Shown one piece after another: positions 11,026 through 56,227 of a stretch of 56,227 bases of DNA. The stretch is from a virus, in IMG/VR virus record IMGVR_UViG_3300046003_007106, positions 1 to 56,227 of that record. One strand, 5' to 3'. The translations under genes were made by a program, and so were the position numbers. The number at the start of each line of letters is the position of its first letter. Within the stretch, counting starts at the first letter, position 1. The notes under the pieces are model-generated. The model was not told the origin of the DNA and did not search any database. It was given only the letters and a program-made list of their open reading frames with translations.

Positions 11026-11739
11026 ATGGGTATGAAAATATTAAAAGAAAACGAAGAAGGTTTTGGTATCTTAATTGAAGGTGATGCTGGTTCAGTATCT
11101 GAAGTATTACAAGGACAAATTATAAATGAGGAAATTAGTAAGGGCCCAATAGATTTATCTGGGCCCATATACTATTACGCCACGTTACAAAAATATGGTG
11201 TTGAAAACAGAAATGGTAGAGTATATCCAGAAAATATTCTAAGAAGGGAAGAACAAAGGTATAGAGAAGTTATTGCTCGTAACTCCAGTTTTCATGAATT
11301 AGACCACCCACAAGAATCTGTTATATCACTTAAAGGTGGTTCACCACATAGAATAGTAGATATGTTCTGGAAAGATAATGTTCTTATAGGTAAATTGGAG
11401 ATATTAGTATCTGAAGGTTTTAGAAGAGGTGGTATTATATCTTGTAATGGTGATTTAGTTGCACATTATTTAAGTTATGGTATGACATTAGGTATATCAT
11501 CAAGAGGGGTTGGAAGTCTTAAAAAGATCAACGGTAAAAATGTTGTTCAAGATGACTTTGAATTAATATGTTGGGATATCGTTTCATCACCATCTACACC
11601 TGGTTCTTACTTATATAAAGATCCACAAGATTTTAAAAAATATGATGAGGTTTTGACTGAACCAAAAGGTATTGAGGAAAATGCGATACCTGAAGAAGAT
11701 AATTTTTTGGCTAACCTTAACAAATTTTTGAAGTTTTAA
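11026..11739 (+). CDS. Prohead maturation protease (T4 gp21-like)
   Basis: This serine protease cleaves scaffold, capsid and internal proteins during head maturation. The catalytic His is in FHELDHP and the nucleophile Ser in LGISSRGVG, the arrangement seen in T4 gp21 and related phage prohead proteases. The N-terminal part ends near YYYATLQKYGVENRNGRVYP, a common start of the protease core. The acidic C-terminal 40 residues may be removed on self-cleavage. It stands just before scaffold and capsid genes, as in T4. T4 gp21 cuts after (I/L)-x-E, which fits the L-N-E motifs found here in the capsid protein and many leader peptides. Confidence 0.9.
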   Translation: MGMKILKENEEGFGILIEGDAGSVSEVLQGQIINEEISKGPIDLSGPIYYYATLQKYGVENRNGRVYPENILRREEQRYREVIARNSSFHELDHPQESVISLKGGSPHRIVDMFWKDNVLIGKLEILVSEGFRRGGIISCNGDLVAHYLSYGMTLGISSRGVGSLKKINGKNVVQDDFELICWDIVSSPSTPGSYLYKDPQDFKKYDEVLTEPKGIEENAIPEEDNFLANLNKFLKF

Positions 11740-12204: not shown

Positions 12205-13491
12205 ATGAGCAAGACAAATATTTTAGCAGAAACTCTAGCTGAAATTCAGGAATTAAGAGAAGCTGTTTCTAAAAACGCTAACCATGCGTTGAAAAGTACT
12301 CTTAAAGAAGAATTAGAAGAGATTGTCAAAAACAACCTAGAGGAAGTTGATGACGAAGAGTTAACAGATGACATGCCTGGTGATGATCTACCAGGTGATC
12401 AAACAGCAAATAATGATGACGGTATGGGTGATATGCCTGCTGAACCAGAAGATGGTGAAGAGGTTATTGATTTAACCGATAAATCAGATGAGGATGTTAT
12501 TAAACATTTCAACCTCATGGAACCTGCTGACGAGATCGAAATCGTACAAACTCCAGAAGGTGGAGTACAAATTAACATTCAACCAGCTAAAGGTGAAGAA
12601 GAATCTGAAGAAGGTTCTGAAGAAATGCCAGCTGATGATAATGTTGATGAGTACAACGAAAAACCAATGGAAGAAATTGTGGATGAAATGATTGATTTAG
12701 GAGAAGAGCCAATGTATGAGATTGAAATCTCAGAAGAGGATCTTAACGAAGTTGCTAAGGAAGCTATAGCTCACATCGCCAACAAAGGTGGTTCAACTCT
12801 TAACGGGGTATCAAAACTTGAAGAACCAGCTAAAGAAAACGGTATGATCAAAAATGCGGCTACCAAACACATGGCTACTAAAGGTGGATCAGTTCCAACA
12901 GGTGAGAAAAAACTTGAAGAGCCCACTAAAGAAAATGGTGTGATTAAAAATGCGGCTACAAAAGATATCCACGAAAGTACACAAAATAAGGCTGGAAACA
13001 AAAACAAAGAAAAAGAGTTACATGAAAGCTTGGTAGTTATGAGAAAAAAATACCAAGAAACAGTGGCTGAAAACAATAAAAAGACTCAAGAGTTAAATAG
13101 CTTCAAAACTTTAGCGGAAGAATTTAAAGGTTCTGAAACTGAATATAAGTCAGCTATCAAAAATCTTAAGTCGCAATTACAAGAAGTTGCTTTATTTTCA
13201 TCAAACTTAACTTATGCAATTAAATTAATTACTGAAAACTCTACAACTAAGGATGAAAAATTCAATATCCTTAAAAGATTCGATTCAGCTAAAAGCTTAA
13301 ACGAGTCAAGAGAAATCTTTAATAGTTTGCAAGATCAGTTAGTTTCAGGTAAAACAGCAACAAAACAGGTGATTGAAGACAAAATTATGGAAACTCCAAA
13401 AGCTAGTGGTTCTTCAAAATTAAATGAATCAACTGCTTATCAAAATCCACAATTATCAAGAATGTTAGATATCATCGGAAAAATTAAATAA
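12205..13491 (+). CDS. Prohead core scaffold protein (T4 gp22-like)
   Basis: This 428-residue protein is very acidic in residues 30-190, with long Asp/Glu/Gly/Pro runs, and helical in residues 270-400. That is the profile of a phage scaffold that fills the prohead. Residues 195-226 and 227-258 are a tandem 32-residue repeat (GGS...KLEEP-KENG-IKNAATK). The C-terminal part contains repeated L-N-E-S sites (SLNESREIF, KLNESTAYQ) that match the probable cleavage site of the maturation protease, as expected for a scaffold that is digested. It lies directly before the capsid gene. Confidence 0.85.
   Translation: MSKTNILAETLAEIQELREAVSKNANHALKSTLKEELEEIVKNNLEEVDDEELTDDMPGDDLPGDQTANNDDGMGDMPAEPEDGEEVIDLTDKSDEDVIKHFNLMEPADEIEIVQTPEGGVQINIQPAKGEEESEEGSEEMPADDNVDEYNEKPMEEIVDEMIDLGEEPMYEIEISEEDLNEVAKEAIAHIANKGGSTLNGVSKLEEPAKENGMIKNAATKHMATKGGSVPTGEKKLEEPTKENGVIKNAATKDIHESTQNKAGNKNKEKELHESLVVMRKKYQETVAENNKKTQELNSFKTLAEEFKGSETEYKSAIKNLKSQLQEVALFSSNLTYAIKLITENSTTKDEKFNILKRFDSAKSLNESREIFNSLQDQLVSGKTATKQVIEDKIMETPKASGSSKLNESTAYQNPQLSRMLDIIGKIK
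12787..12978 (+). repeat. Tandem 96-base repeat in scaffold gene
   Basis: Two 96-base units begin at 12787 and 12883 and encode similar 32-residue segments of the scaffold. Confidence 0.75.
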
Positions 13492-13526: not shown

Positions 13527-15110
13527 ATGGGAGCATTATTAGAATCAGGAAAAGTTGGTAACGTAAGCTTAAATCACTTAAAAGCTGTACGTACTGATGT
13601 AATTAACAGATGGGACAGCTTAGGACTATTAGAAGGTCTTGCTGGTCACAGAAAAGAGAATATCGCACAATTATTTGAAAACCAAGCATCACACATGCTT
13701 AATGAATCAGTTGCTTTAGGTAACGAAGGTTCTTTCGAAACTGTGGTATTCCCAATCGTGAGAAGAGTATTCTCAAAATTATTAGCTAACGAAATCGTTT
13801 CGGTTCAAGCTTTAAACTTACCTATTGGTAAATTATTCTACTTCATTCCGAAGTTAGAGACTTCATCATTTGATTCTAATCAAGGTGGTATCGATACAAG
13901 CGGTACTCAAGTAAGTGCTAACCTTTATGATTCTTTCTACGGAGAGAATGGTCTTTATGACTCATCTAAAGGTACTGCTACAACTTTAACTGGTGTTAAA
14001 GATACAACTACTTTGTATCAATTTACTACTACAGGTTCTACTGACGGTTATGACGCTGTAGCTGGAACATCTTGCCCTGTTAGCACAACTTCAATCATTA
14101 AAGTTGATTTTAGCAACTATCAAACTAACTGGGATAATGCTGAAGAAGTTATGTCAACATTAAACATTACTAGTGTAACTTCTGGTGCCAGCTTCGATTT
14201 CTATTTACCAGCTCAAAAATATGGTAAATCAGTTATGGATTCAACTGGTATTATTTACATTGCAATTGTTAACAACAGTGCTTCTGTAGCATTACCTTTG
14301 ACTGGTTTAACTGTAACAGCTAAAGAGTACGAATCTTTAGAGTACAGTGACACAATGGGTGAGGTAAGCTTCGAACTTCAATCTGTAACAGTTTCTGTTA
14401 TCGAAAGAAAATTAAGAGCTCAATGGTCTCCAGAATTAGCTCAAGACGTATCAGCGTTCCATAACATTGATGCAGAAGCTGAATTAACAGCTTTATTATC
14501 TGAGCAAGTTGCTGCTGAGATTGACCGTGAAATTTTACGTGACTTACGTAGAGGTGCGGCATGGAGAATGCAATGGGATTACTCTGGTTCAAGAATTCAA
14601 ACAGGTGGTTTGAATGTTGGAAATAGTTTCTATACACAAAAAGATTGGAACCAAACGTTGATCACTGCAATCAACCAAGTTTCTGCACAAATCCACAAAG
14701 CTACTTTAAGAGGTGGTGCTAACTGGATCGTAGTTTCTGCTGAGATTTCAGCTATCTTGGACGACTTAGAATACTTCCACGTATCTAACGCTGCTCCAGA
14801 GCAAGACAAATATAACATGGGTATTGAAAGAATCGGTTCATTAGGTGGAAGATACCAAGTTTACCGTGATCCTTACTTCCCAGCTGATACAATCTTGATG
14901 GGTCACAAAGGTACATCTTTGTTGGATACAGGTTACATCTACGCACCATACGTACCAATGCAATTAACTCCTACAATGTACAACCCGTTCACCTTTGCAC
15001 CAGTTAAAGGTATTATGACTCGTTACGCGAAAAAAATGGTAAATAACCGTTTCTATGGTGTAATCAAATGTCAAAATATCGTTAGCTTCGGTATCACAGG
15101 TTTAAGATAA
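13527..15110 (+). CDS. Major capsid protein (T4 gp23-like)
   Basis: The 527-residue protein forms the hexamers of the head shell. Its N-terminal region (NRWDSLGLLEG, then IAQLFENQ) resembles the T4 gp23 prosegment. HMLNE-SVALG at residues 57-65 lines up with the T4 site LTE-A, so cleavage after Glu60 is likely. The body contains VRRVFSKLLANEIVSVQALNLPIGK, typical of the family. A Thr/Ser-rich insertion of about 130 residues (150-280) may be a surface domain. Codon use is more regular and slightly more GC-rich than in neighbouring genes, consistent with high expression. A strong terminator follows. Confidence 0.93.
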   Translation: MGALLESGKVGNVSLNHLKAVRTDVINRWDSLGLLEGLAGHRKENIAQLFENQASHMLNESVALGNEGSFETVVFPIVRRVFSKLLANEIVSVQALNLPIGKLFYFIPKLETSSFDSNQGGIDTSGTQVSANLYDSFYGENGLYDSSKGTATTLTGVKDTTTLYQFTTTGSTDGYDAVAGTSCPVSTTSIIKVDFSNYQTNWDNAEEVMSTLNITSVTSGASFDFYLPAQKYGKSVMDSTGIIYIAIVNNSASVALPLTGLTVTAKEYESLEYSDTMGEVSFELQSVTVSVIERKLRAQWSPELAQDVSAFHNIDAEAELTALLSEQVAAEIDREILRDLRRGAAWRMQWDYSGSRIQTGGLNVGNSFYTQKDWNQTLITAINQVSAQIHKATLRGGANWIVVSAEISAILDDLEYFHVSNAAPEQDKYNMGIERIGSLGGRYQVYRDPYFPADTILMGHKGTSLLDTGYIYAPYVPMQLTPTMYNPFTFAPVKGIMTRYAKKMVNNRFYGVIKCQNIVSFGITGLR

Positions 15111-36395: not shown

Positions 36396-36403
36396 AATTT
36401 TTT

Positions 36404-40185: not shown

Positions 40186-40192
40186 GCACGTT

Positions 40193-40912: not shown

Positions 40913-40913
40913 A

Positions 40914-41270: not shown

Positions 41271-41300
41271 ATCTTTTTTTTGTTTTATTTATTTTTTTGA

Positions 41301-41657: not shown

Positions 41658-41668
41658 TGTTTTAAATT

Positions 41669-44666: not shown

Positions 44667-45800
44667 ATGAAAAAAATTACCTTAAACGAAGAACTTACCA
44701 GAATACAAGAAATGATGGGTGTTAAGCATACTAGCCGAAATGGCAAAAACGCTATAGAAGAACTATCACCTTCGGATATAGTAAACTCAATGAGAGAAGA
44801 AGAAGAAACTGACGAAAACACAGAAGTTCTTAATAAATTCAAAGATCAATACGGTAAAAAAAAGGGTGAAGAAGTTTATTATGCAACTGCTAATAAGCAA
44901 GATAGAGACCCTGAAACATTTGAAAAAAATGAAGAATCCGCAATTGGTGGATGGGATCTTGCTATGGAAGGTATTAGAGTTGATTCTGATAATCGAGTTG
45001 ATTATCTTGAGAATGCCTTGAAGCATGTTTGGAACATGGGTAAAGGTAACAACACTATAGATCTTAAATCAATGGCCCAATCACTAATTGATGATATGTT
45101 CGGAGAACCAGAAGAAGAACCAGATTATAAAATGCCTGGTTATGACGACACGATGGACGCTTTAGGTGATCTTAAATTAGAAAATCTAGATGAACTTCAA
45201 AAAGAGCTTGAAGAAGAGGAAGGTTCTTGGATGGCTATGAGAGCTGGTAAAGATGGCCCAGTTTATGAAAACGAAGAAATGGGTGGGAATGATGAGGTTG
45301 AAGAATCAACAATTACATACTACATTACAAAAAATACTGATAAATATGGGGACACAACATATATCGTAATGAAAAAATACCCATATAAAGATGGATATAT
45401 GGTTGATGAATATAATGGGGAACAATATGCTGATAAATACCAAGCACAGCAAGTTCTTAACTACTTAATAAGACGACAAGAAAAATCTTCAACACGAATG
45501 ACAACTGGTAAAGAAGGTGAGGTTTATGAAAATGAAGAAATGGGAGAAGCTAGGAAACTACAACAAGAGACATATTTTGAAACACAAACTGGTGCTTTAC
45601 AATCGGCTGAAGAATATGCTACCCATAAAGGTTATACTGTTAATTGGGAGAGTATAAACCCAGAACATGTTGCTTACGGCCAAACGGTTAAGTATAGTGT
45701 TGAATTGATGAAAGATGGTACTCCATCTAGAAAGATGTTACAAATATCTTTATATAGAATGGAATCTGGTAAATATGAATTGACAAATTACATTAATTAA
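44667..45800 (+). CDS. Leader-bearing probable internal virion protein, 377 aa
   Basis: The N-terminus MKKITLNEELTRIQEMMGV has the shared leader described in the findings, though GLNE is replaced by GVKH. Residues 60-85 hold FKDQYGKKKGEEVYYATANK, a short motif I recall in other phage head proteins. A 13-residue unit (GKDGPVYENEEMG) at residue 194 recurs at residue 281 (GKEGEVYENEEMG), 261 bases apart. Both precede similar beta-rich segments. The protein is very acidic. It is probably packaged in the head; the function is unknown. The next gene follows after 5 bases. Confidence 0.7.
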   Translation: MKKITLNEELTRIQEMMGVKHTSRNGKNAIEELSPSDIVNSMREEEETDENTEVLNKFKDQYGKKKGEEVYYATANKQDRDPETFEKNEESAIGGWDLAMEGIRVDSDNRVDYLENALKHVWNMGKGNNTIDLKSMAQSLIDDMFGEPEEEPDYKMPGYDDTMDALGDLKLENLDELQKELEEEEGSWMAMRAGKDGPVYENEEMGGNDEVEESTITYYITKNTDKYGDTTYIVMKKYPYKDGYMVDEYNGEQYADKYQAQQVLNYLIRRQEKSSTRMTTGKEGEVYENEEMGEARKLQQETYFETQTGALQSAEEYATHKGYTVNWESINPEHVAYGQTVKYSVELMKDGTPSRKMLQISLYRMESGKYELTNYIN

Positions 45801-45805
45801 AATAT

Positions 45806-46336
45806 ATGGAAAACATTAACGAACAAATATCACGAATAAAAACCATGATGGGTTTAAATGAGGACGGGTCAACACCCCAATCACAAAACCCCACTGGTAC
45901 AACAAAACGTAAATGGACTGATGGTGTTAGCCGTGGTCCAGCTAACCCTATTGGTAACGCACCCTCTAGTATTAGAACAAACCATGGTAGGGCTAATCCA
46001 ATTGAATTGGCTGAAGACGAATCAACAAAACTTGAATCATTTGCTGAAACAAGATTGGGTGGTGCTGAAAAGATTGCTGATAACGCAAAAGAAAAAGGTG
46101 GTGTGGCTTTATTAACTTACCACCATTTTGAAGTTAAATTATCTTATTATGAAAAAGCGGCTAAAGGTGAATTAAACATGGATGACGCTAAAAAAGAATA
46201 CGAAGATTTATTAGAAAAACTTTACTCAAAAACAAAAGATGATATGGGTATTGAACAAATAGATTTTCAAGAACTACTCGGTAAAATGGAAGTACTGGGG
46301 GAGTTGATAATCAAAGAAAATGAAAAAGGAGCTTAA
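45806..46336 (+). CDS. Leader-bearing probable internal virion protein, 176 aa
   Basis: The leader MENINEQISRIKTMMGLNE ends at residue 19 with the L-N-E site. A flexible Ser/Pro/Asn-rich part (20-65) follows, then a helical C-terminal half (residues 75-176) rich in Lys, Glu and Ala. No catalytic motif is visible. It is co-transcribed with the preceding leader-bearing gene. Cleavage after Glu19 would leave a mature protein of 157 residues. Confidence 0.7.
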   Translation: MENINEQISRIKTMMGLNEDGSTPQSQNPTGTTKRKWTDGVSRGPANPIGNAPSSIRTNHGRANPIELAEDESTKLESFAETRLGGAEKIADNAKEKGGVALLTYHHFEVKLSYYEKAAKGELNMDDAKKEYEDLLEKLYSKTKDDMGIEQIDFQELLGKMEVLGELIIKENEKGA

Positions 46337-46350
46337 AAGCTCCTTTTTTT
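46323..46350. terminator. Bidirectional terminator between convergent leader-bearing genes
   Basis: AAAAAGGAGCTT pairs with AAGCTCCTTTTT. The hairpin overlaps the stop codon of the plus-strand gene and has T runs in both directions. Confidence 0.85.
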
Positions 46351-46372
46351 ATTATTTGTATTTTGAATAATC

Positions 46373-46687
46373 TTATTTAATCGGATCGTCAAAATCTGGA
46401 TCACTTTCATGACCTTGTGTTTTTTTATAAGCTTCCAATTCAGTTCTTAACTGATCCCAATCATTGACACCATTATCATTGATATATTCGATTAAGCTAT
46501 ACATATTTTTAAAACCTAGGTACGCTATTGCCGCTGGGTTATCATTTAGATAATCAACGAACTCTTGAATACCAGAAGATTTTAAACTGATTTCACGTAT
46601 GAGTTGTTCGGAATCTTTTTGGGTTTCATTTAAACCCATCATTTTACGCATCTTAGCAATCGTTTCTATTAATATCATTTTTTCCAT
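46373..46687 (-). CDS. Leader-bearing small protein, 104 aa
   Basis: MEKMILIETIAKMRKMMGLNE (residues 1-21) is the shared leader, here with ILIET in place of LNEQ. The rest is a small helical domain (EFVDYLNDNPAAIAYLGFKN) with an acidic end. It follows the upstream leader-bearing gene without a gap. No known family. The mature product after cleavage would be about 83 residues. Confidence 0.7.
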   Translation of the reverse strand: MEKMILIETIAKMRKMMGLNETQKDSEQLIREISLKSSGIQEFVDYLNDNPAAIAYLGFKNMYSLIEYINDNGVNDWDQLRTELEAYKKTQGHESDPDFDDPIK

Positions 46688-47347
46688 TTATGCAAACATT
46701 TTTGATGCTTTTTCGTACCAATCTGGGAAATATCTTCTTAGATATAATTTCATAGCTTTCATCACTAAACCCTCTTTATCAGTATTATATTCTTCCCAAT
46801 CATCCCAAAAATGATCTACAGCTTCCTCAGCCGCATTTTTTAAATCATCATACATCCCTAAATTAAATTCCGTTGGTTCATTAAGATCGGTGTGAATTGT
46901 TTTATTCATATACCCTTGATCAGAACTACCCCAATCTTCATCGATTGCACCTGACTCAACATCATCATAATTTTTTGAAGCGTATTTATTAGCTTCTTCT
47001 TCATCATGAGCATCGATCATCGCTTGATCCTCTGGTGACATACCATCAGTATCTTGAGCTAATAAATCATCAAAAGAAATCATTTTTTCTTCTGGATCAT
47101 TACTTTCACCCATATTTCTACTACGATCCCAATCTTTTTCCATATCAGCCAAAACAGAATCTTTTTCATTACCACTTAATTTATTCCACTCAACCTTACC
47201 ACCAACGTAATCAATAGCGTCCTGATAAAAATCATGTTGTTGTTTAGCGTTTGATTTTGCATTGGACATGTCATCCATATGGTTCTCATTAAGACCCATC
47301 ATATTGCGCATCTTAATAATTTGTTCGTTTAATATAGGTTTTTTCAT
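46688..47347 (-). CDS. Leader-bearing acidic protein, 219 aa
   Basis: The ATG at 47347 is chosen because it gives the leader MKKPILNEQIIKMRNMMGLNE and lies 17 bases after a late-type element; the open frame extends farther upstream through the promoter. The mature part is very acidic (many Asp/Glu) with a helical C-terminus (YLRRYFPDWYEKASKMFA). No family is recognised. It is probably an internal head protein. Confidence 0.7.
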   Translation of the reverse strand: MKKPILNEQIIKMRNMMGLNENHMDDMSNAKSNAKQQHDFYQDAIDYVGGKVEWNKLSGNEKDSVLADMEKDWDRSRNMGESNDPEEKMISFDDLLAQDTDGMSPEDQAMIDAHDEEEANKYASKNYDDVESGAIDEDWGSSDQGYMNKTIHTDLNEPTEFNLGMYDDLKNAAEEAVDHFWDDWEEYNTDKEGLVMKAMKLYLRRYFPDWYEKASKMFA

Positions 47348-47364
47348 AACAATTTCTTTATTTA

Positions 47365-47372
47365 TATAAATA
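47365..47372 (-). promoter_or_regulatory. Late-promoter-like element for gene at 47347
   Basis: Minus-strand TATTTATA lies 17 bases before the ATG. Confidence 0.55.
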
Positions 47373-47397
47373 TACTGAATTTTACCAAAAATACGCA

Positions 47398-47405
47398 TAT
47401 TTATA
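47398..47405 (+). promoter_or_regulatory. Late-promoter-like element facing a nearby terminator
   Basis: Plus-strand TATTTATA is divergent from the previous site. Transcription from here would meet a terminator at 47457-47486 after about 70 bases. Confidence 0.45.
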
Positions 47406-47409
47406 TCAG

Positions 47410-47451
47410 ATGCATCGAAAAAAACAAAATAAAAATAATATAATCACGTAA
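47410..47451 (+). CDS. Possible 13-residue leader peptide
   Basis: ATG at 47410 opens MHRKKQNKNNIIT and stops at TAA just before the hairpin at 47457. It is too short to judge by itself. Its place between a promoter-like element and a terminator, ahead of the synthetase-like gene, would fit an attenuation leader, but this is speculative. Confidence 0.25.
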   Translation: MHRKKQNKNNIIT

Positions 47452-47456
47452 ATGAA

Positions 47457-47486
47457 AATCTCTCCTTTTTGAAGAGATTTTTTTTT
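47457..47486 (+). terminator. Terminator or attenuator ahead of synthetase-like gene
   Basis: AATCTCT pairs with AGAGATT and is followed by a T run. No annotated plus-strand gene lies before it, so it either ends a short RNA or controls the next gene. Confidence 0.7.
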
Positions 47487-47505
47487 GCCCTAAAAACAAA
47501 AAAAG

Positions 47506-48321
47506 ATGAAAAATACAGAAACTTACCACGAGCTGGTACAAAAAATGAGAACCTTCTTTATCCAAAAAGGATTTAAAGAGGTACCAACACAATCAAGATT
47601 ATCAATCCTTGCTGCATGCGAAAACCCGCACTCAGTTAAAACATTTGAATACAGCGGGGAGATTTGGCCGTTACCACAAACTGGGCAAATGTGGCTTGAG
47701 CATGAACTATTAATGAACCCTGAATGGGATGGAGTGTTCTGCATCTCAACATCATACAGAGAAGAGAAGAACCCAATCCCAGGTAGACACGAATTAATCT
47801 TTCCAATGTTTGAGTTCGAATCAAAAGGTACAATGGAAGATATGATTAAATTGGAAGGTGATTTATTGGCTTATCTTGGGTTTGGTGATTCAATGCATGA
47901 GGTACAATACGAAGATGTGTGTGAAGAATATGGTGGTGTTTCAATCTTGGAAGATGAACACGAGTCAAGAATATGGAAAGAGAAAGGAAATATCGTTTCA
48001 CTTCAACATTTCCCGATCAGAACAAATCCGTTCTGGAATATGAAAAATGATCAAAACGGAATCTTTAATAAGGTTGATGTTATCATGTATGGACAAGAAA
48101 CTATCGGTTCCGCAGAAAGAAGTTGTGATGTAAGTAAGATGAAGGAAATGTTCTATACCATTGAAAATGGTGGTTACGCTGGTAAATTGTTTGAATTATT
48201 CGGTAAAGACCGTGTGGAAGCAGAACTTGAAAAATTCTTATCATTTGACTTTTTCCCAAGATTTGGTGGTGGTATCGGAATGACTAGATTGGCAAGAGCT
48301 TACGAGCTAATGAAAGGTTAA
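47506..48321 (+). CDS. Class II aminoacyl-tRNA-synthetase-like catalytic domain, 271 aa
   Basis: The protein is a free-standing class II catalytic core of the Asp/Asn/Lys type. Motif 2 is FCISTSYREEKNPIPGRHELIFPMFEFES, and motif 3 is FGGGIGMTRLARAYE, with Arg at the ATP-binding position. There is no anticodon-binding domain, so it resembles paralogues such as asparagine synthetase A or amino-acid ligases more than a complete synthetase. It may activate an amino acid and attach it to a protein, tRNA or small molecule. Codon use is somewhat more GC-rich than its neighbours. A possible attenuator precedes it. Confidence 0.75.
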   Translation: MKNTETYHELVQKMRTFFIQKGFKEVPTQSRLSILAACENPHSVKTFEYSGEIWPLPQTGQMWLEHELLMNPEWDGVFCISTSYREEKNPIPGRHELIFPMFEFESKGTMEDMIKLEGDLLAYLGFGDSMHEVQYEDVCEEYGGVSILEDEHESRIWKEKGNIVSLQHFPIRTNPFWNMKNDQNGIFNKVDVIMYGQETIGSAERSCDVSKMKEMFYTIENGGYAGKLFELFGKDRVEAELEKFLSFDFFPRFGGGIGMTRLARAYELMKG

Positions 48322-48341
48322 CTTAATGTTATGGTATATAT

Positions 48342-48365
48342 GGGGGTCTTCGGACTCCCTTTTTT
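48342..48365 (+). terminator. Intrinsic terminator after synthetase-like gene
   Basis: GGGGGTC-TTCG-GACTCCC forms a stable stem closed by a UUCG tetraloop and is followed by T residues. Confidence 0.85.
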
Positions 48366-48379
48366 ATAGTTTAAAAAAC

Positions 48380-48387
48380 TATTTATA
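48380..48387 (+). promoter_or_regulatory. Late-promoter-like element for gene at 48399
   Basis: TATTTATA lies 11 bases before the ATG. Confidence 0.5.
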
Positions 48388-48398
48388 TAAAAAGGTTA

Positions 48399-49079
48399 AT
48401 GAGGACATTAGTTATATCTGATATACATATTGGATCCAAAGGGTGTAAAGCGGAAGAAATACTCACTTTACTTAAAACAGAATCTTACGAAAGAGTTATT
48501 TTAGTGGGTGATATCATTGATGGGTGGTTATTTAAAAAGTACAGAAAATTCTCATATGATCAAACAAAGGTTATTCGTGAGTTATTAAAACAATCAAAAA
48601 ATAAAGAAATTATCTGGATCTCAGGAAACCATGATGAATTTTTAAGAGAATACAGCCCATTACATATTGGCAACATTATTGTTGTTGATGAATTTATTGA
48701 GGATGGTGTTTGGTTTTGTCATGGTGACAAATACGATGGTGTAATTAAATTAAAATGGCTCGGCGTACTTGGTTCAATCGGATATGATATGGCAATTGTT
48801 TTTGATAGATGGTTGAAAAGAATGGGTAAAAAGACATCTCTTTCAAAATACTTAAAGGATAATGTTAAAGCCGCTGTTTCATTCATGGTTGATTTTGAGA
48901 ACGAGATGGTTCGTCAAACAAAGAAAAGAAACTGTCACACGGTTGTATGTGGACACATACATAATCCATCTGATAAAAATATCAATAACGTTAGATACAT
49001 TAACACGGGTGACTGGGTTGAGAATTGTTCATACGTTATCTATGAAAATAAAGAGTTAGAATTAATAACCAGATATTAA
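48399..49079 (+). CDS. LpxH-like metallophosphatase, 226 aa
   Basis: The calcineurin-type metal-binding motifs are complete: SDIHIGS, GDIIDGW, SGNHDEF, FCHGDKYD and GHIHNPSD. The closest family is UDP-2,3-diacylglucosamine pyrophosphatase (LpxH) and its lipid-linked relatives, peripheral membrane enzymes that act on glycolipid precursors. It overlaps the next gene, a GT2 glycosyltransferase, by one base, which points to a joint role in modifying a lipid-linked or surface glycan. Confidence 0.82.
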   Translation: MRTLVISDIHIGSKGCKAEEILTLLKTESYERVILVGDIIDGWLFKKYRKFSYDQTKVIRELLKQSKNKEIIWISGNHDEFLREYSPLHIGNIIVVDEFIEDGVWFCHGDKYDGVIKLKWLGVLGSIGYDMAIVFDRWLKRMGKKTSLSKYLKDNVKAAVSFMVDFENEMVRQTKKRNCHTVVCGHIHNPSDKNINNVRYINTGDWVENCSYVIYENKELELITRY

Positions 49080-49783
49080 TGGAAGAAAAACTTACAATAG
49101 TAATACCAACAAAAAACGAAAAAAAATATATAGGAAGATTGTTAACAGCGCTTTATCATCAAAAGATTGGTCAAACTAAAATTATCATATCTGATAATAA
49201 CTCACAGGATACAACACTATCAATTGTACAACTTTATAAAAAAATACTTAATTTAAATATAGAGGTTGTTGAGGGTGGTTTACCATCTGTTGCTAGAAAC
49301 AACGGCGCTTTAAAAGCAACAACCCCTTATATATTATTTGTTGACGCTGATGTTACTTTCACAAGAAACAACGCAATTGCGTTGGCGATGAAAAAAATTG
49401 TTAACAAAAAGATTGTTTCCACAACCCCAGTATATAAAGGCACCAAGGATTTAAAGGCAAAATTATTATTCTCTGTTAATAATCATCTTACAAAGTTTAT
49501 ATCACTATTTGACCCATTTGCAGTCGGGGCCTTCATGCTCATCAGAAAAAAAGATTTTTTTGATAAAGGTGGTTACGATATAGAAATCATACAGTCAGAG
49601 GATTGGTGGTTATCAAAACAATTTAAACCAAGTGAATTTTGTTTGATACCAAAATTAATTACACAAGACAATAGACGATTTAAAAAATTTGGATATATGA
49701 ATATGATTAAAATGATGTTTGTTAATTGGATTAATAAAAACAACCTAGATCATTTTAAAAAGAATAATGGGTATTGGAATTAA
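49079..49783 (+). CDS. Glycosyltransferase family 2, 234 aa
   Basis: The GT2 A-fold is clear: TIVIPTKNEKKYIGRLL, IISDNNSQDTT, ARNNGALKATTPYILFVDADV (D-x-D) and a later QSEDWWLSKQF (general base region). It has only a weak hydrophobic segment, so it is probably a cytoplasmic or membrane-associated enzyme. It is translationally coupled to the LpxH-like phosphatase. The product could be a modified lipid A, lipid-linked sugar or surface glycan. Confidence 0.88.
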   Translation: MEEKLTIVIPTKNEKKYIGRLLTALYHQKIGQTKIIISDNNSQDTTLSIVQLYKKILNLNIEVVEGGLPSVARNNGALKATTPYILFVDADVTFTRNNAIALAMKKIVNKKIVSTTPVYKGTKDLKAKLLFSVNNHLTKFISLFDPFAVGAFMLIRKKDFFDKGGYDIEIIQSEDWWLSKQFKPSEFCLIPKLITQDNRRFKKFGYMNMIKMMFVNWINKNNLDHFKKNNGYWN

Positions 49784-49797
49784 AAATTTTCATAACC

Positions 49798-49805
49798 TAT
49801 TTATA
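49798..49805 (+). promoter_or_regulatory. Late-promoter-like element for gene at 49820
   Basis: TATTTATA lies 14 bases before the ATG. Confidence 0.5.
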
Positions 49806-49819
49806 ATTAAATTATTAAA

Positions 49820-50857
49820 ATGAAAAAAAATCAAAAAAACAAAATTAAAAAGATGTCAAACGAAAACAATCAAGAAGTAGGTGCTGAGGTTAATGTTTCA
49901 GTAGACGGTAACGTATCAACCCAAACGGGTAACGAACAAGTAGGTGCAAGCGCAAACGCATCATATGATGCTCACGCTGAAGCTGAAGCAAACGCAAAAG
50001 CTGGTATCGATGGTGATATGGCTTACGCATCCGCAGAAGCTCATGTTAGCGCAGAAGTAAGTGCAGAAGCGAACGCTGAAGCACATGCAAATCAAGAATT
50101 AGGTGGTGGTGTTAGTGTAGGTGCTGACGTAAGTGCTGGAGCTGAAGCTCACGCAAGTGCTGAAGCAAATGCGGAAGTACATGCTGAAGCTGGTTGGGAT
50201 GGATCAGACGCTAAGGTAGCAGCTGGTGCAAGTGTTGATGCTAGAGTAGAGGTTGGAGCGAGTGGTGAGGCAAACGCTAAAGCTGGGGTAGACACACCAA
50301 TCGGCGAAGTTTCTGTTGAGGCTAATGCTGAAGGACATGCTGGCGCATACGCAGAAGCTCACGCTGGAGTTGATGGACACGCAAGTGTTGGTGAGCATGG
50401 TGTTGAAGTTGGTGGTGGTGCGATGGCTGGAGCAAGTGTTGGTGTTGAAGCTGGTGGATCCGCTGGAGTGGACACACCTTTGGGTGGTGCTGAAGTAAGC
50501 GGTGGAGTTGGTACTAGTATAGGTGTACAGGTTGGTGCTGAAGGTGAAGGTCATACAACATATAATAATGGTGAGGTTAGTGTAGGTGTTTCTGGTGAAG
50601 CGGCTTTATTAGTAGGATTGGATGCTGATGTAAATGTTAACTTGGATTTAAATCCAGCTATTAGCATCGGTGAAACAGTTGTGGACAAAACACCTGAAAT
50701 TGCAAACACAGTTGCAAATGAAACTGTTAACGTGGCAAATACCGTGGCTGACACGACAACAAGTGCCGTAAACACTGTGGCCGATACAGCTAAAAATGTT
50801 GGTAATTCGATCTCTGATGGGGCTAAAAACATCGGTAAAAAACTTAAATTCTGGTAA
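49820..50857 (+). CDS. Ala/Gly/Glu/Val-rich repetitive protein, 345 aa
   Basis: After a basic start (MKKNQKNKIKKM) the protein is built of short irregular repeats such as AEANAEAHA, SVGADVSAGAEAHA and GVDTPLGGAEVSGG. These alternate small residues with Glu, His and Val over residues 20-270, a profile compatible with a beta-solenoid or amyloid-like rod. Residues 285-345 form amphipathic repeats (NVANTVADTTTSAVNTVADTAKNVGN), as in apolipoprotein- or LEA-like segments. There is no signal peptide or known family. A second in-frame ATG at residue 12 is an alternative start. The next gene begins 2 bases after the stop. Confidence 0.7.
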   Translation: MKKNQKNKIKKMSNENNQEVGAEVNVSVDGNVSTQTGNEQVGASANASYDAHAEAEANAKAGIDGDMAYASAEAHVSAEVSAEANAEAHANQELGGGVSVGADVSAGAEAHASAEANAEVHAEAGWDGSDAKVAAGASVDARVEVGASGEANAKAGVDTPIGEVSVEANAEGHAGAYAEAHAGVDGHASVGEHGVEVGGGAMAGASVGVEAGGSAGVDTPLGGAEVSGGVGTSIGVQVGAEGEGHTTYNNGEVSVGVSGEAALLVGLDADVNVNLDLNPAISIGETVVDKTPEIANTVANETVNVANTVADTTTSAVNTVADTAKNVGNSISDGAKNIGKKLKFW

Positions 50858-50859
50858 AA

Positions 50860-51126
50860 ATGGCTGAAAATCAAGGTATTACGGATACTTTCTTCACTAA
50901 ATTAAAGGAGCAATCGTTTACGATCATACTATTGGTCGGTATATTATGGTATCAAAACAATAATTATCGAAACTCTGTTGAAGATTATAAAACCCAACTT
51001 GATAAAAAAGATGAGACTATTATGAAGTTAGTTGATGATGAAAGACAGAGAATGGTCGAAAGGAATGAATATTTGATGACTCAAAGAGATAAGTATGTTG
51101 ATGAGTTAATTAATAAACAAAAATAA
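50860..51126 (+). CDS. Small membrane-anchored coiled-coil protein, 88 aa
   Basis: One hydrophobic segment (residues 18-31, FTIILLVGILWYQN) is followed by a charged coiled-coil tail (VEDYKTQLDKKDETIMKLVDDERQRM). This topology is that of inner-membrane spanins and of small phage anchor proteins. No lysis-gene neighbour is present, so the role is uncertain. It is co-transcribed with the Ala-rich repeat protein and followed by a terminator. Confidence 0.6.
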   Translation: MAENQGITDTFFTKLKEQSFTIILLVGILWYQNNNYRNSVEDYKTQLDKKDETIMKLVDDERQRMVERNEYLMTQRDKYVDELINKQK

Positions 51127-51127
51127 C

Positions 51128-51153
51128 AAAGGGGTCTAGGACCCCTTTTTTTT
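51128..51153 (+). terminator. Intrinsic terminator after gene at 50860
   Basis: GGGGTC-TAG-GACCCC is followed by eight T. Confidence 0.85.
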
Positions 51154-51183
51154 ATATAGTGCTATTTTGAAGAATGTTTTTTA

Positions 51184-52236
51184 TTAACCGAAGTTTTTTC
51201 TCACATCATCATGTGTAACAGACCCAATGTTGTTTTTCTCTCTATAAGATTGAGCTTTAATACCCTTTAAAATATTTTCAAGAACCTTGGTAACATCTTC
51301 GTAATTAATATCTTTATACTTCTCATCGATCAAATCGTTTATCTCCATGTATAAATCGCCCGTTTTGTCGGAAAGATCCTCACCGAGTGTGGTTGGGTTT
51401 GGGTTATTCCTGCGTTGTGTTAAATCCAACTGACCACCTTTACTGGTTATACCATATCCAAAATGTAAAACATAATAGAAATTCCCTTGATCAAATTTAT
51501 ACAGCATATTTGGGTATTTTGATTTGATTTCATTCAAAAGCTCATTACCCAAACCATCAACGTATTTTATTATTTCTGGGTTTTTTTGCCATCCACTCCA
51601 TTCATTACCAAATTTTGTTCCAGCTTTATAGGTCCAATCATTACCACCACCTACAAGTAATTTGGCTACAATTGAAGGTGTAACGATAACGTTAACCATT
51701 TCACCATGATTACCTTCTTGTACCACAATTTGAATATGCTCTTCATTTTTAGAACTTTGAACCGCTGTTTTGGTTGTAGTGAGATTAGGGGTAACAAATT
51801 TATTAGTTATTTGAACGGCAAATCCTTTTGTCTTTAAAAATGAATAGAGTTGTTTAGACATTTGTTTTAATTCTAACAAATTTTCGTTTAATGATTCCTC
51901 ACCAACAAAATTTGTATTGTAACCCATCTCACCATTGGTGCTTTCGTTTTCAATCTTTTGTGCACCGTATTTAATCCCTTTTAAGAAAGCCTCAATACTG
52001 TTAAATTGTTTAACCAATTTGCTTCCCTCATACACACTTATGCTATCATTGATGTTACCGTACACTCTATCACCAATCTCAAGAACATAAGGTGCGATTT
52101 TATGTAAATTACCAACAACACTTTTTAATTCGTGCATAATTGTTGTATCGTAGTAAACACCACTGACGTTTGTACCTTCATTAAGGCCCATCATTTTACG
52201 CATTTTAGCGATTTCGTTTAACATATTTTTTTCCAT
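51184..52236 (-). CDS. Leader-bearing protein, 350 aa
   Basis: MEKNMLNEIAKMRKMMGLNE (residues 1-20) is a clean copy of the shared leader, and a second SLNEN site lies near residue 115. The mature part is mixed alpha/beta with a beta-rich middle (VQITNKFVTPNLTTTKTAV, HIQIVVQEGNHGEMVNVIVT) and a helical end. I do not recognise the fold. A late-type element lies 17 bases upstream. It is probably a packaged head protein. Confidence 0.7.
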   Translation of the reverse strand: MEKNMLNEIAKMRKMMGLNEGTNVSGVYYDTTIMHELKSVVGNLHKIAPYVLEIGDRVYGNINDSISVYEGSKLVKQFNSIEAFLKGIKYGAQKIENESTNGEMGYNTNFVGEESLNENLLELKQMSKQLYSFLKTKGFAVQITNKFVTPNLTTTKTAVQSSKNEEHIQIVVQEGNHGEMVNVIVTPSIVAKLLVGGGNDWTYKAGTKFGNEWSGWQKNPEIIKYVDGLGNELLNEIKSKYPNMLYKFDQGNFYYVLHFGYGITSKGGQLDLTQRRNNPNPTTLGEDLSDKTGDLYMEINDLIDEKYKDINYEDVTKVLENILKGIKAQSYREKNNIGSVTHDDVRKNFG

Positions 52237-52253
52237 AGTAATTAGTTTTTATT

Positions 52254-52261
52254 GATAAATA
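52254..52261 (-). promoter_or_regulatory. Late-promoter-like element for gene at 52236
   Basis: Minus-strand TATTTATC lies 17 bases before the ATG. Confidence 0.5.
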
Positions 52262-52392
52262 CTTGAAACTTTTTAAAAATCACATATATTTATTGAAGAC
52301 CTTGTGATTGGGTTCCATGCGTACTGGATGCGTTTGAGTTGGAATTGATACCAACGATATGGACACCAAATACAAAAAAAATATAAGGAAAA

Positions 52393-53232
52393 ATGTTATA
52401 CACGTACATTAATACTGTACCTGCGCCCAGTGCGTTCATCACAGTAAACAAACAAAGACTCCGTCAAGACGGAAAAGCGGTCTACATGAAAGACCAAACA
52501 GAGTTCGAGATCGAACTTCACAATCCCACAAAAGAAAAAATAATGGCAATGATCGAAATGAATGGTACACCCATTTCAGATTCGGGTATCATTTTGAAAC
52601 CAGGTCAAAGGGTTTTTCTTGAAAGATTTCTGGATAATGAGAAAAAATTCCTTTATGAAACTTATGTGGTAAACAATAACAAAGAAATCAAGGAAGCGAT
52701 TCAGAACAACGGAAAGGTTACAGTTAGATTTCACAAGGAATCAAAACCAAGACCAAGAAGTGTGACTTACGGATCTTTGGTTAATACCCCAACAAGTTTT
52801 GGTTATAGTGAGATTACTTACACAAATTACAACCAAATCATCCCGAATTACAAATCTAACATCAACGGTATTACTGATACCATCTTCACAAACAGCGTTG
52901 GTAACACAAATATCAATAACTTAAGCAACAGAAAGATGGAAACGGGTTCGGTTGAACAAGGAAGCCAAAGTGATCAGGAGTTAAAATCAACCCGTGGAAA
53001 CTTCGAATGGTTTTACACATGGAGCGATGAATGGCAAATCATGCCACACAACCAACAACCAAAAACCGCAAAGGATTTGGTTGACAGATGCAGCAAATGC
53101 GCGGCGAAATTAAAACCAAATTATAAGTTCTGCCCAGAATGTGGTGAAAAGAATCTGGATAAAGAAGATCCAGAGGCGTTTTTACAGTCACTATCAAAGG
53201 AACAGTTAATTCAATTGTTAAAAGCAAAATAA
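52393..53232 (+). CDS. Virion-type protein with C-terminal zinc ribbon, 279 aa
   Basis: The N-terminal 115 residues look like a beta-sandwich (FEIELHNPTKEKIMAMIEMNG, ILKPGQRVFLERF). A Asn/Thr/Ser-rich linker follows. The C-terminus has a C-x2-C ... C-x2-C zinc ribbon (CSKCAAKLKPNYKFCPECGE, residues about 236-255) and a short helix. A purine-rich AAGGAAAA lies just before the ATG. Bases and codons are more GC-rich than in the surrounding genes, which may reflect transfer or high expression. The only TATTTAT element lies 98 bases upstream (52287). The function is unknown. Confidence 0.65.
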   Translation: MLYTYINTVPAPSAFITVNKQRLRQDGKAVYMKDQTEFEIELHNPTKEKIMAMIEMNGTPISDSGIILKPGQRVFLERFLDNEKKFLYETYVVNNNKEIKEAIQNNGKVTVRFHKESKPRPRSVTYGSLVNTPTSFGYSEITYTNYNQIIPNYKSNINGITDTIFTNSVGNTNINNLSNRKMETGSVEQGSQSDQELKSTRGNFEWFYTWSDEWQIMPHNQQPKTAKDLVDRCSKCAAKLKPNYKFCPECGEKNLDKEDPEAFLQSLSKEQLIQLLKAK

Positions 53233-53254
53233 AATAATATTCACAAGGTCATAG

Positions 53255-53280
53255 AATCCCGCCAAAAGCGGGGTTTTTTA
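53255..53280 (+). terminator. Intrinsic terminator after zinc-ribbon gene
   Basis: CCCGC-CAAAA-GCGGG is followed by T residues. Confidence 0.85.
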
Positions 53281-53293
53281 TTAGTTTTGATGG

Positions 53294-53301
53294 TATTTAT
53301 A
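53294..53301 (+). promoter_or_regulatory. Late-promoter-like element ahead of GNAT gene
   Basis: TATTTATA lies 37 bases before the ATG at 53339, and only 7 bases before an ATG at 53309 that begins a broken leader. Confidence 0.45.
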
Positions 53302-53310
53302 TTATATAAT

Positions 53311-53355
53311 GAAATTATTGTATTAAACGAACAATTAAATGGAATCAGGAAATGA
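53311..53355 (+). pseudogene. Decayed copy of the capsid-leader sequence
   Basis: In this frame the DNA encodes VLNEQLNGIRK followed by a stop. The bases TAAACGAACA-TTA-AT are nearly the same as those of the intact leader at 55112 (QLNEQLDRIRE). The leader is out of frame with both the ATG at 53309 and the GNAT gene, so it appears to be a broken leader. Confidence 0.45.
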
Positions 53356-54439
53356 CATTTTTAGTCAATTAAAGGCTAGACACCCAGAGGTAAGATTCGA
53401 ACTATACCCAACGGTTAAAGGTGACACCAAGCGTGTATACCTTACAGGGTTCATGGTACCTTACAGTATGAGAGGAAAAGGTCTTGGAACAAAGTTCATG
53501 GAAGATCTGATGAAGGTTGCTGATGAAAACGGTTTTAAGATAACACTTACACCGTCAAGCAGCTACGGTGGAAATGTAATCAGATTAAGAAAGTTCTACA
53601 AAGAATTTGGGTTTGTTGAAAACAAAGGAAGCAACAGAGATTACTCACACAAAGAAGATATGTACAGGGACCCAAAAAATTTAAACGAGGGCAACGGATC
53701 ATTGTTAACCGAAAAGTTAACAGATGTGGATGACGATGTGAATATGATCTACGAAATGTATTTCAGAAAGGGTGTTGAAGAAATTGAACGCACGGGGATG
53801 ATATCAGCTAAAACGTTTGAGAAAACGGAAACCGACACAAGCGTATTAAAGAATGAATTATGTATTAAGGCTCATGAAATGAACCCATGCACAATCTGGA
53901 TCAATAAAGGTAATAATCATTACAACCCAAATAAAAAACTTATTTCAGTGTCGGTTAGCGTTTCAGCGATGGATTATATCATGAGCCAATTTGATGGGGA
54001 TCTTAAAAAGGCTATACATTATCAAGACCCGCCACAAGTAATAACAATGAAAAGGGAATTCACGGAAGAAAGAATCAAGGGATCCATTCACCATGAGTTG
54101 ACCCACTGGATTGATGATACCTTAAATAATCGACATATAAAGAAAATACTTGATAAAAATGTTGAATTGCATTCAGCTGGTGAGGCGCTGCCGTTTGACA
54201 GCGTGACGGTTAATGCGCATTACATGGAGATACAAGCTCAGGTCCACAACATAAAGCAATTGCATAATAAACACGCTGACATCTGGAACACATTATCATT
54301 TGAGGATATGATGCACATGTCACCATCATTGACGCATACATACAGAACATTGCCACACGGTTTAAAGACGCAATGGATTAAAAAATTAAAGATGAGATTG
54401 TTCAGAGAAGGATTGCTCGGCAAAAAAATGTTTAATTAA
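53339..54439 (+). CDS. GNAT acetyltransferase fused to HExxH metallopeptidase-like domain
   Basis: Residues 1-115 are a GNAT N-acetyltransferase (VYLTGFMVPYSMRGKGLGTKFMEDLM contains the RGKGLGT acetyl-CoA loop; FYKEFGFVENKG follows). After a LNEGNGSLLTEK linker, residues 135-366 form a second domain with GSIHHELTHWIDD, an HExxH zinc site, as in small zincins. The fusion suggests that one product acetylates and cuts, or that the domains are separated by maturation at the L-N-E linker. A decayed leader lies just upstream. The next gene follows after 17 bases. Confidence 0.72.
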   Translation: MESGNDIFSQLKARHPEVRFELYPTVKGDTKRVYLTGFMVPYSMRGKGLGTKFMEDLMKVADENGFKITLTPSSSYGGNVIRLRKFYKEFGFVENKGSNRDYSHKEDMYRDPKNLNEGNGSLLTEKLTDVDDDVNMIYEMYFRKGVEEIERTGMISAKTFEKTETDTSVLKNELCIKAHEMNPCTIWINKGNNHYNPNKKLISVSVSVSAMDYIMSQFDGDLKKAIHYQDPPQVITMKREFTEERIKGSIHHELTHWIDDTLNNRHIKKILDKNVELHSAGEALPFDSVTVNAHYMEIQAQVHNIKQLHNKHADIWNTLSFEDMMHMSPSLTHTYRTLPHGLKTQWIKKLKMRLFREGLLGKKMFN

Positions 54440-54456
54440 AAACCAGAACGATTAAT

Positions 54457-55110
54457 ATGGTAACAAGTGAATCAAATGTGTTAAACACAAACATACCAAA
54501 TCTTAAATTAAAAGTAAGAAGAAGTTGGTTAACCAAGAATGAGGATGACAAATTTATATTCGATGACTGTTACGCATTTGCAATACAAAGTATAGCGGGT
54601 AAAATATTAACATTTCATATTATGACAGATTATGGGATGTTGAGAAGTAGAGTGCCTATATCGGAGTTATTTAACAAAGAGACCAAACAAGATATCCCAG
54701 CTGACCACAAACAATTATGGGACTGCTTTGGTGAGAATGTCAGTGTAATTGAGTACCAATACTTAGCTGAGAAAAGGTGTAAGGTTATCCTAAAGGATAA
54801 GTCATTCGCTTGGGCCACCTACTTATTTACTGTGGATTGGTTTAGCAACCCGTACTCAAATGAACCAACCGATTACAAGTGTGGTCACATACTATTGGCT
54901 GACGATGGTTATTTACTATGTCAACCAAACAATCGGATATATTGGAAGGATTCTAACTTTATAACTAACGATTTTCCGATAAACCCAAAAGAATTTAAGG
55001 TGGACAGCACATTGGAAAGCGTAGAATCTAAAAGTGATAGATGGGTTAGTTCAAATACAGATTCTTTTTATTACGAAATAAATGAAATACAAGATAAAAT
55101 AAAATATTAA
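54457..55110 (+). CDS. Hypothetical protein, 217 aa
   Basis: The product is beta-rich with several Trp and Cys residues (HKQLWDCFGENVSVIEYQYL, YKCGHILLADDGYLL). There is no leader, signal peptide or membrane helix, and no family I can name. It stands between the GNAT fusion and the flavodoxin-like gene with gaps of 17 bases and 1 base, so it is part of one operon. The antisense frame over it is a shadow. Confidence 0.6.
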   Translation: MVTSESNVLNTNIPNLKLKVRRSWLTKNEDDKFIFDDCYAFAIQSIAGKILTFHIMTDYGMLRSRVPISELFNKETKQDIPADHKQLWDCFGENVSVIEYQYLAEKRCKVILKDKSFAWATYLFTVDWFSNPYSNEPTDYKCGHILLADDGYLLCQPNNRIYWKDSNFITNDFPINPKEFKVDSTLESVESKSDRWVSSNTDSFYYEINEIQDKIKY

Positions 55111-55111
55111 T

Positions 55112-55891
55112 ATGAAACAACTAAACGAACAGTTAGATAGAATACGAGAAATAATGCTTTCTGAGCAAATGGTTCAATCAGATGCTTGGAAATCAATAAA
55201 AAAAACTTTGGACATCTTAAAGAAAAAGGATAAGGTTTTATTATTGAGTTGTTCAAATAGATATAACTGGGACGAAACTAATGTGGATACCCCTAAATCC
55301 AAATTACTGGCAACATATATTCACGAAGAGTTGGGTGATAAATCTGTTTTAATAGATGTTACGGACCTTAAAATTTTCCCTTGTGAAGGTAATGTATCAC
55401 GAAAAGAAGGAAATGGTTGTGGTGTGTTAAAGTCAAAATTAAAAGATAAGGAAAAAAACCCTTCGGGTGAACATAGATGTTGGGCTAGTTTAAATAACAA
55501 AACCGATGAACTTTGGAAAATCTCTAAAGAATTATTTGAATCTGATGCGGTTATATTTTTTAGTTCCGTAAGATGGGGACAAACAAATATGTACTATCAA
55601 AATCTAATTGAAAGATTAACTTGGTTAGAAAATAGACACTCATCATTGGGTGAAAGTAATTTAATTAAAGATATTGAAACTGGTTTCATATGTGTGGGAC
55701 AAAATTGGAATGGTGAAGAGGTTACCAAAGTACAAATGAAAGTTCATGAGTTTTATGGGTTTAAACCAAATAAAAAACTCTATTGGAATTGGCAATATAC
55801 CACAGATGTAAATGATGAGACTCAAAAGTCTTACGAAAAATCACACGATAAATTTATTAAAGATACTAAAATTCCAGATACAGAAAAATGA
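55112..55891 (+). CDS. Leader-bearing flavodoxin-like NAD(P)H-dependent reductase, 259 aa
   Basis: MKQLNEQLDRIREIMLSE (residues 1-18) is the shared leader, with L-S-E at the possible cut site. The rest has the flavodoxin-like fold of NADPH-dependent FMN reductases: VLLLSCSNR (phosphate-binding loop), SKLLATYIHEELG, DAVIFFSSVRWGQTNMYYQNLIERL and GFICVGQNWNGEE. A cysteine-containing insertion lies at 90-125. Such enzymes reduce flavin or use it to reduce quinones. The stop overlaps the start of the next gene. Confidence 0.78.
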   Translation: MKQLNEQLDRIREIMLSEQMVQSDAWKSIKKTLDILKKKDKVLLLSCSNRYNWDETNVDTPKSKLLATYIHEELGDKSVLIDVTDLKIFPCEGNVSRKEGNGCGVLKSKLKDKEKNPSGEHRCWASLNNKTDELWKISKELFESDAVIFFSSVRWGQTNMYYQNLIERLTWLENRHSSLGESNLIKDIETGFICVGQNWNGEEVTKVQMKVHEFYGFKPNKKLYWNWQYTTDVNDETQKSYEKSHDKFIKDTKIPDTEK

Positions 55892-56227
55892 TGAATTTAC
55901 AAGAACAAATATCAAGAATATTAAAGGGAACAATTGTTGAATCAAAAAATTGGGGTGATTCTGATGAAAAATTGGAAAAAAATTTTAAATTCAAAGATTT
56001 TAATGAATCAATGGATTTTGTTAATAAAGTTGCTAAAATTGCTGAAGAACAACAACATCATCCAGATATTGAAATAAAATATAATAAAGTAAAAATATCA
56101 ATAACTGATCACGAAAAGGGTGGTGTATCTGATAAATGTCATAAATTAGTAAAATCTATTGATGATATTGAAAAAACAGTTAGAGTAACAAAATCAGATT
56201 TGGTTCGTATTATTAAACAAGAAGAAT
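55888..56227 (+). CDS. Leader-bearing pterin-4a-carbinolamine dehydratase-like protein, 3' end outside window
   Basis: MMNLQEQISRILKGTIVES is a variant of the shared leader, with I-V-E before Ser as a possible cut site. The domain that follows has the signature of pterin-4a-carbinolamine dehydratases (DCoH/PCD): AEEQQHHPDIEI, KVKISITDHEKGGVSDKCHKL and VKSID. These enzymes regenerate tetrahydrobiopterin or act as coactivators. The frame is still open at the last base and continues with a Lys-rich tail. It overlaps the reductase gene by 4 bases, so the two are expressed together and may share a pterin/flavin role. Confidence 0.75.
   Translation, partial: MMNLQEQISRILKGTIVESKNWGDSDEKLEKNFKFKDFNESMDFVNKVAKIAEEQQHHPDIEIKYNKVKISITDHEKGGVSDKCHKLVKSIDDIEKTVRVTKSDLVRIIKQEE

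Follow-up and report, generated by a model that had tools for sequence, protein, structure and literature searches.

In phage T4, the internal proteins IPI–IPIII and Alt begin with a capsid-targeting sequence, a short N-terminal propeptide that is common to unrelated proteins and ends in L/I-x-E, and the prohead protease gp21 cleaves after L/I-X-E (PMC9026906). An Asp at the cleavage-site position of IPIII blocks processing and leaves targeting unaffected, and both ends of Alt are processed (PMC9026906). T-even phages have at least ten capsid-targeted proteins of this type (PMC12373910). Here we describe a comparable leader in a large T4-like virus, IMG/VR record IMGVR_UViG_3300046003_007106, of which the whole 56,227-nucleotide stretch was analyzed (the window). 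One amphipathic segment, T1, opens seven otherwise unrelated proteins of the window, which, like T4, encodes an S77 protease and a Gp23 capsid protein. We consider it highly probable that this leader is a capsid-targeting propeptide resembling that of the T4 internal proteins and serving the packaging and release of cargo.

The proposed counterpart of the T4 capsid-targeting sequence is modular here, with several tags that can stand in for one another. Unlike T4, it has three such leader classes and a longer helix that lies between two LxE sites; copies also occur at C-termini and between domains, the cargo clusters number in the hundreds and include enzymes, and the leader resembles the scaffold C-terminus. 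In the phiKZ-like giant phage SPN3US, too, head and ejection proteins carry propeptides for the prohead protease (gp245), and gp53 and gp54 have an identical 15-residue N-terminus; this phage differs in its A-x-E cleavage motif, in several propeptides of more than 100 residues, and in that only eight proteins are processed (PMC5694885). A further likeness is to bS21-encoding Bacteroidetes phages, in which terminase, portal, prohead protease, and capsid genes stand together; the passages of that report covered here describe these phages as large and freshwater, with predicted Bacteroidetes hosts, and mention no leader (PMC9723584).

Common N-terminal segments in the window and its relatives

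The first-pass annotation had listed a common leader on the genes at 44667, 45806, 46373(-), 46688(-), 51184(-), 55112, and 55888, and all seven N-termini were found there. We scored them with a twelve-column T1 profile whose training set held neither the window nor its close relatives. Six of the seven outscore all 11,788 internal positions of window proteins (best internal, 11.8 bits), and the best non-leader N-terminus in the window reaches 8.7 bits. A one-residue deletion lowers the score of the 51184(-) leader, whose RKMMGLNE is intact and identical to the neighbours' copies. A reversed-profile control peaked at 15.5 bits over 19 records, compared with 20 to 52 bits for most true matches. 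The leader genes make up 12% of predicted window genes. No leader occurs on the other window proteins, among them the ClpA-like protein, helicase, class II tRNA synthetase, glycosyltransferases, capsid, and portal. Weaker leader-like starts suggested earlier at 28401 and 31527(-) were dropped, as their T1 profile scores are -6.2 and -16 (30565-31527), respectively.

The leader ends in [LI]xE in six of the seven proteins (LNE four times, LSE, and IVE), in line with the five or six copies claimed before. The protein at 44667 is the one without a terminal LxE: its nearest triplet of this type, IEE, lies at residue 32, and a terminal LxE is also absent from the orthologue N-termini examined. At 45806, LNE is invariant in 5 orthologues. 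The 46688(-) gene likely starts at 47347 instead of 47398, the start of the longest open reading frame. In the predicted structure of the 55112 protein, the leader forms a helix of its own (residues 2-16), followed by a low-confidence break at 18-20, where the site lies.

We collected related IMG/VR sequence by a DNA pattern for MMGLNE, which alone is noisy, with many internal or unrelated matches, and later by the patterns MNLQExIxRI and MKKxIRLTES; a further ~1.9 Mb came from 18 related records. The comparison set totals 442 sequences and 5.9 Mb. It contains three leader classes, with consensus sequences MNLQEQISRIQSMMGLNE (T1), MKKIIRLTESDLTRIVKRVIxE (T2), and the shorter MNLQESIRRILRE (T3), on 253, 248, and 76 proteins, respectively. 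Together, the T1 and T2 proteins (~250 each) come from 212 sources and fall into 298 body clusters. Leader genes, counted with a short MK-I-ITES form, account for 14-27% of predicted genes in the parts of G003, G004, and G035 that were sampled (80, 120, and 160 kb). Leader strings had no match in plasmids or in 5.39 million open-access papers, and none in isolated phages, where the short-peptide tblastn finds near-identical copies only and is therefore a weak test.

Codons at conserved leader residues vary synonymously, and conservation is therefore at the protein level. The amphipathic moment exceeds that of shuffled sequences, and mean hydrophobicity is low (-0.08 and -0.26). A Sec-type secretion signal, which has a long hydrophobic core, was rejected on this ground.

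Tagged proteins include pterin dehydratase, PPK2, Nudix, GNAT, PAP2, DUF2237, ParB_N, kinase, EF-hand, and other families; most have no match. The 55112 protein is predicted to be a flavodoxin-type reductase. Because its fold search returned FMN/NAD(P)H reductases at a low template-modeling score (~0.4), we claim the fold class only; by sequence, its family has no solved structure. The early replication proteins sampled, on which a leader would count against packaging by the first-pass annotation, do not carry it: DNA polymerase B and DnaB (15 records each), a sample and not all early genes, have no T1 or T2 at N-termini with a readable start.

The LxE triplet and the exchange of leaders

A triplet [LIVM]xE lies within 9 residues after the helix in 83% of T1 and 95% of T2 leaders, and in 84% and 99%, respectively, of loci fetched by the upstream part alone. 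With any of nine other residues (D, Q, N, K, S, T, R, A, or G) at the E position, the figure is at most 32%, and it is 20% and 13%, respectively, in 12-residue windows elsewhere in these proteins. The triplet of T3 stands at a fixed place in 66/76 proteins, a class set by a text pattern that partly includes the [LI]xE end itself. After T1 it occurs at varying distance (GLNE, GVINE, GLLTE, GLIIE, MLSE), with a register shift of one to three residues. The terminal E is kept despite these shifts and substitutes for it are rare, as a cleavage requirement predicts. This conservation also fits the T4 finding that Asp at this position stops processing and not targeting. Genome-wide, with no leader selection, [LIVM]xE near N-termini is enriched 1.5- to 2.6-fold in clade B, with no enrichment for D; this modest enrichment is not our main evidence, and leader composition enriches some other residues too.

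The leader class differs in 69 homologous pairs at 40% identity or more (56 T1/T3, 10 T1/T2, and 3 T2/T3), and the exchange point is typically the [LI]xE site. Examples, with a slash at the site, are MNLQENIHRIHQMMGVINE/GLHDTSWENDEGDKITL (L361) versus MKKIIRLTESELILLVKRVINE/GLHDTSWQNDEGDKITL (L352), and the trio MKKIIRLTESQLISLVKRVINE/SDPKDGTGKKPKGSDRRLYTDENP (L302), MNLQENINRIKEMMGVITE/GKDPKTGTGKKPEGSDRRLYTDENP (L309), and MTLQESIRRILREELLNE/SDPKTGTGKKPKGSGRRLYTDENP (L339). Pterin dehydratase carries T1 in the window, T3 in L356, and MKNIIKKLLRE in L300, where the body is 74% identical. Across 36 of these pairs, identity steps up at the site: leader positions 14 to 4 residues ahead of the cut are mostly 3-14% identical, with isolated values reaching 22%, and positions on the body side mostly 25-44%. 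Our picking the cut pair for maximal body identity somewhat favours this step.

Cassette copies and head genes

The T1 and T2 layouts are alike, LxE-helix-LxE. The 265 strong T1 matches divide into 238 at N-termini, 20 at C-termini, and 7 inside proteins, although a few of the last are N-termini with another start. Many C-terminal copies open with an LxE triplet, as in KLNE/AINRFKKIINYI and QLNE/TIQRMKSIIGL, each running to the stop codon. Internal copies sit between domains, as in GLNEHLRRLKQVMGIVTE/TRQGMLNWL of L006; in L401, the same TRQGMLNWL body start follows an N-terminal T1 leader. Small modules also begin after [LIVM]xE (CWxGYTQKG in 31/31 copies and YARTLKNARQ in 8/8), although the copies are related to each other and do not count as independent events. 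The 51184(-) protein has a 174-residue module that begins near an internal SLNE (residue 118), and its G009 orthologue lacks the module. Relatives of the GNAT protein at 53339 carry a T1 copy internally or C-terminally. The helix at 56182 could be C-terminal or inter-domain, as the record ends there and the 55888 gene runs past it.

These proteins resemble the polyvalent proteins of phages and conjugative elements, which are multi-domain and thought to be delivered with DNA (PMC5512222). Unlike in polyvalent proteins, LxE sites and T1 cassettes link the domains here, a layout that points to cutting into separate cargo.

Two further proteins belong beside these cassettes. An L301 open reading frame at 5503 (+), of 439 residues, is polyprotein-like, with a YARTLKNARQ module, a zinc ribbon, a CWxGYTQKG module, and an internal T3 cassette. 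One family has the T1 helix at its C-terminus (L217:15322-15813 (-), with orthologues in G017, G018, G019, G020, G022, G026, G028, and G029); it also occurs in relatives without N-terminal leaders, has no Pfam or PHROG match, and may be a constant core cargo.

The gp21-like protease noted before at 11026 was borne out by its Peptidase_S77 match (Table 1). The 13527 product matches Gp23 (E=1.1e-72), and the L-N-E that had been placed at the T4-equivalent site is there: MLNE occupies residues 57-60, shortly ahead of the Gp23 domain start (residue 70). It is kept in aligned relatives as a candidate cut site, MLNE/S in the window clade and LINE/A in a second clade. For comparison, T4 gp23 loses 65 residues (PMC5694885). 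S77 protease and Gp23 are both encoded in 23/25 large leader-bearing records; the remaining two encode neither and may be fragments.

The product of 12205 has no family match and is a putative scaffold protein by position and conservation. Its C-terminus in the window, KLNE/STAYQNPQLSRMLDIIGKIK (13420-13488), resembles the T1 helix; in many relatives the C-terminus reads [LI]xE/SKTYENPQFLRMKDLMSKIK, and in L134 it reads LVE/SKTYENPQIIRIKEMMGVLK. Scored with the T1 profile, the median scaffold C-terminus ranks among the best 1.4% of C-termini and the best 0.07% of internal segments, and the C-termini that score higher are mostly C-terminal tags. Because the scaffold ends in [LI]xE plus a T1-like helix, the tag may imitate the scaffold tail, which is the least certain step of our proposal.

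Table 1. Positions of leaders, cassette-related features, and head genes in the window
Feature	Position	Strand	Remarks
T1 leader MKKITLNEELTRIQEMMGV (44667)	44667..44723	+	377-aa protein; 31.7 bits; no LxE directly after
T1 leader MENINEQISRIKTMMGLNE (45806)	45806..45862	+	176-aa protein; 30.0 bits
T1 leader MEKMILIETIAKMRKMMGLNE (46373(-))	46625..46687	-	104-aa protein; 15.3 bits
T1 leader MKKPILNEQIIKMRNMMGLNE (46688(-))	47285..47347	-	219-aa protein; 25.9 bits
T1 leader MEKNMLNEIAKMRKMMGLNE (51184(-))	52177..52236	-	350-aa protein; 9.1 bits
T1 leader MKQLNEQLDRIREIMLSE (55112)	55112..55165	+	flavodoxin-like, FMN-reductase-like protein (predicted); 30.8 bits
T1 leader MMNLQEQISRILKGTIVE (55888)	55888..55941	+	pterin-4a-carbinolamine dehydratase (PF01329); 15.2 bits
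T2-like helix RVTKSDLVRIIKQEE	56182..56226	+	after dehydratase domain; T2 profile 21.5 bits
GNAT-domain protein, no leader	53339..54439	+	LNE (117), LLTE (125) after GNAT domain
Prohead protease, T4 gp21 family (Peptidase_S77)	11026..11739	+	PF03420 E=3.6e-17; phrog_207 8.4e-31
Gp23 major capsid protein N-terminal propeptide	13527..13706	+	ends MLNE (E60)
Putative scaffold protein	12205..13491	+	between protease and capsid genes

Elsewhere in the window, the portal gene (5358-8363) appears to contain an intein that carries an HNH endonuclease: residues 109-292 match HNH, the portal match resumes at 474, and the insertion seems to end ...FSHN ahead of TPEIS. The region directly after the capsid gene (15217-21735) holds glycosyltransferase-like genes together with one that is carbamoyltransferase-like; they may form a cassette for sugar modification. 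A run of secreted-looking proteins occupies 35168-43567 (-), and the end of one of them (41669-43567 (-)) resembles a sorting domain for type IX secretion. This domain suggests a Bacteroidota host, and the host is probably Bacteroidota. Finally, 49820-50857 encodes an Ala/Gly-rich repetitive protein of 345 residues.

Proposed packaging, its alternatives, and their meaning

In the mechanism that we propose, the amphipathic helix would attach to the core or shell of the growing prohead, probably by imitating the scaffold C-terminal helix, so that the tagged protein ends up inside. Cleavage after [LI]xE by the S77 prohead protease would then strip the helix, leaving the cargo free in the head and able to enter the host along with the DNA. 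With LxE on both sides of the helix, an N-terminal tag would be released through the second site, a C-terminal tag through the first, and an inter-domain tag through both. The first-pass annotation had proposed that the phage packs a set of proteins in its head. The protease, the conserved site, leader swapping, and the scaffold support a capsid-targeting propeptide; packaging, cleavage, and delivery themselves we infer.

Several points weigh against this proposal. The likeness drawn to the T4 leader is one of general plan, and the case for a T4-like system here is built on genes. Directly after the helix, LxE is missing in 17% of T1 leaders, including that of 44667, and the triplet is short and common elsewhere. 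The relatives G017, G019, G022, and G027-G029 share the capsid and protease genes and have no N-terminal T1, T2, or T3, so the leader is optional. Two tagged families have no relative among 50,697 phage records. The likeness of the scaffold to T1 is modest, L134 excepted.

The best-placed alternative, in our judgment unlikely, is that the leader recruits proteins to the prohead for head assembly or genome organisation, with no delivery to the host. In T4, the prohead protease also processes core proteins (PMC9026906), and the conserved C-terminally tagged family without known function would suit such a role. Essential assembly factors would be conserved, however, whereas the bodies here vary greatly between relatives (the 298 clusters) and include dehydratase, Nudix, GNAT, PAP2, PPK2, and FMN-reductase-like enzymes. 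Still less probable is that the leader directs proteins elsewhere in the infected cell, such as to the membrane, a replication compartment, or a host protein, with LxE as part of a binding motif. An amphipathic N-terminal helix is indeed a generic localisation device. However, the three classes share little besides such a helix and a terminal [LI]xE and are swapped at that site, scaffold and capsid bear the same motif, replication proteins have no leader, and the low hydrophobicity is unlike a secretion signal. That the repeated start is a DNA or mRNA element with no protein function, either a region for translation start or a hot spot of recombination, and owes its spread to homologous exchange can practically be set aside: leaders have clearly spread modularly between genes and codon preference is strong at several MNLQE codons, but the synonymous variation and the C-terminal and inter-domain copies rule out a transcription or translation element, and the terminal E is kept across register shifts and leader classes.

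Returning to the capsid-targeting propeptide, we give an even chance to a broader form of it, in which the T1 cassette would be a position-independent packaging-and-release tag that mimics the scaffold C-terminal helix. Such a tag would load proteins from the N-terminus, the C-terminus, or between polyprotein domains, and the protease would free the pieces. In some stretches, as many as a fifth of the genes, or more, would then encode such cargo, including metabolic enzymes acting in the host at time zero.

If this is true, a DNA signature alone would predict which uncharacterised proteins of large phages ride in the virion and are delivered at the start of infection. The roughly 300 mostly uncharacterised clusters would be candidate first-strike proteins, either anti-defence proteins or host modifiers, and the leaders would serve directly as tags for bringing foreign proteins into phage heads. 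The question of how capsid-targeting sequences are recognized would also have a testable answer, namely, imitation of the scaffold tail.

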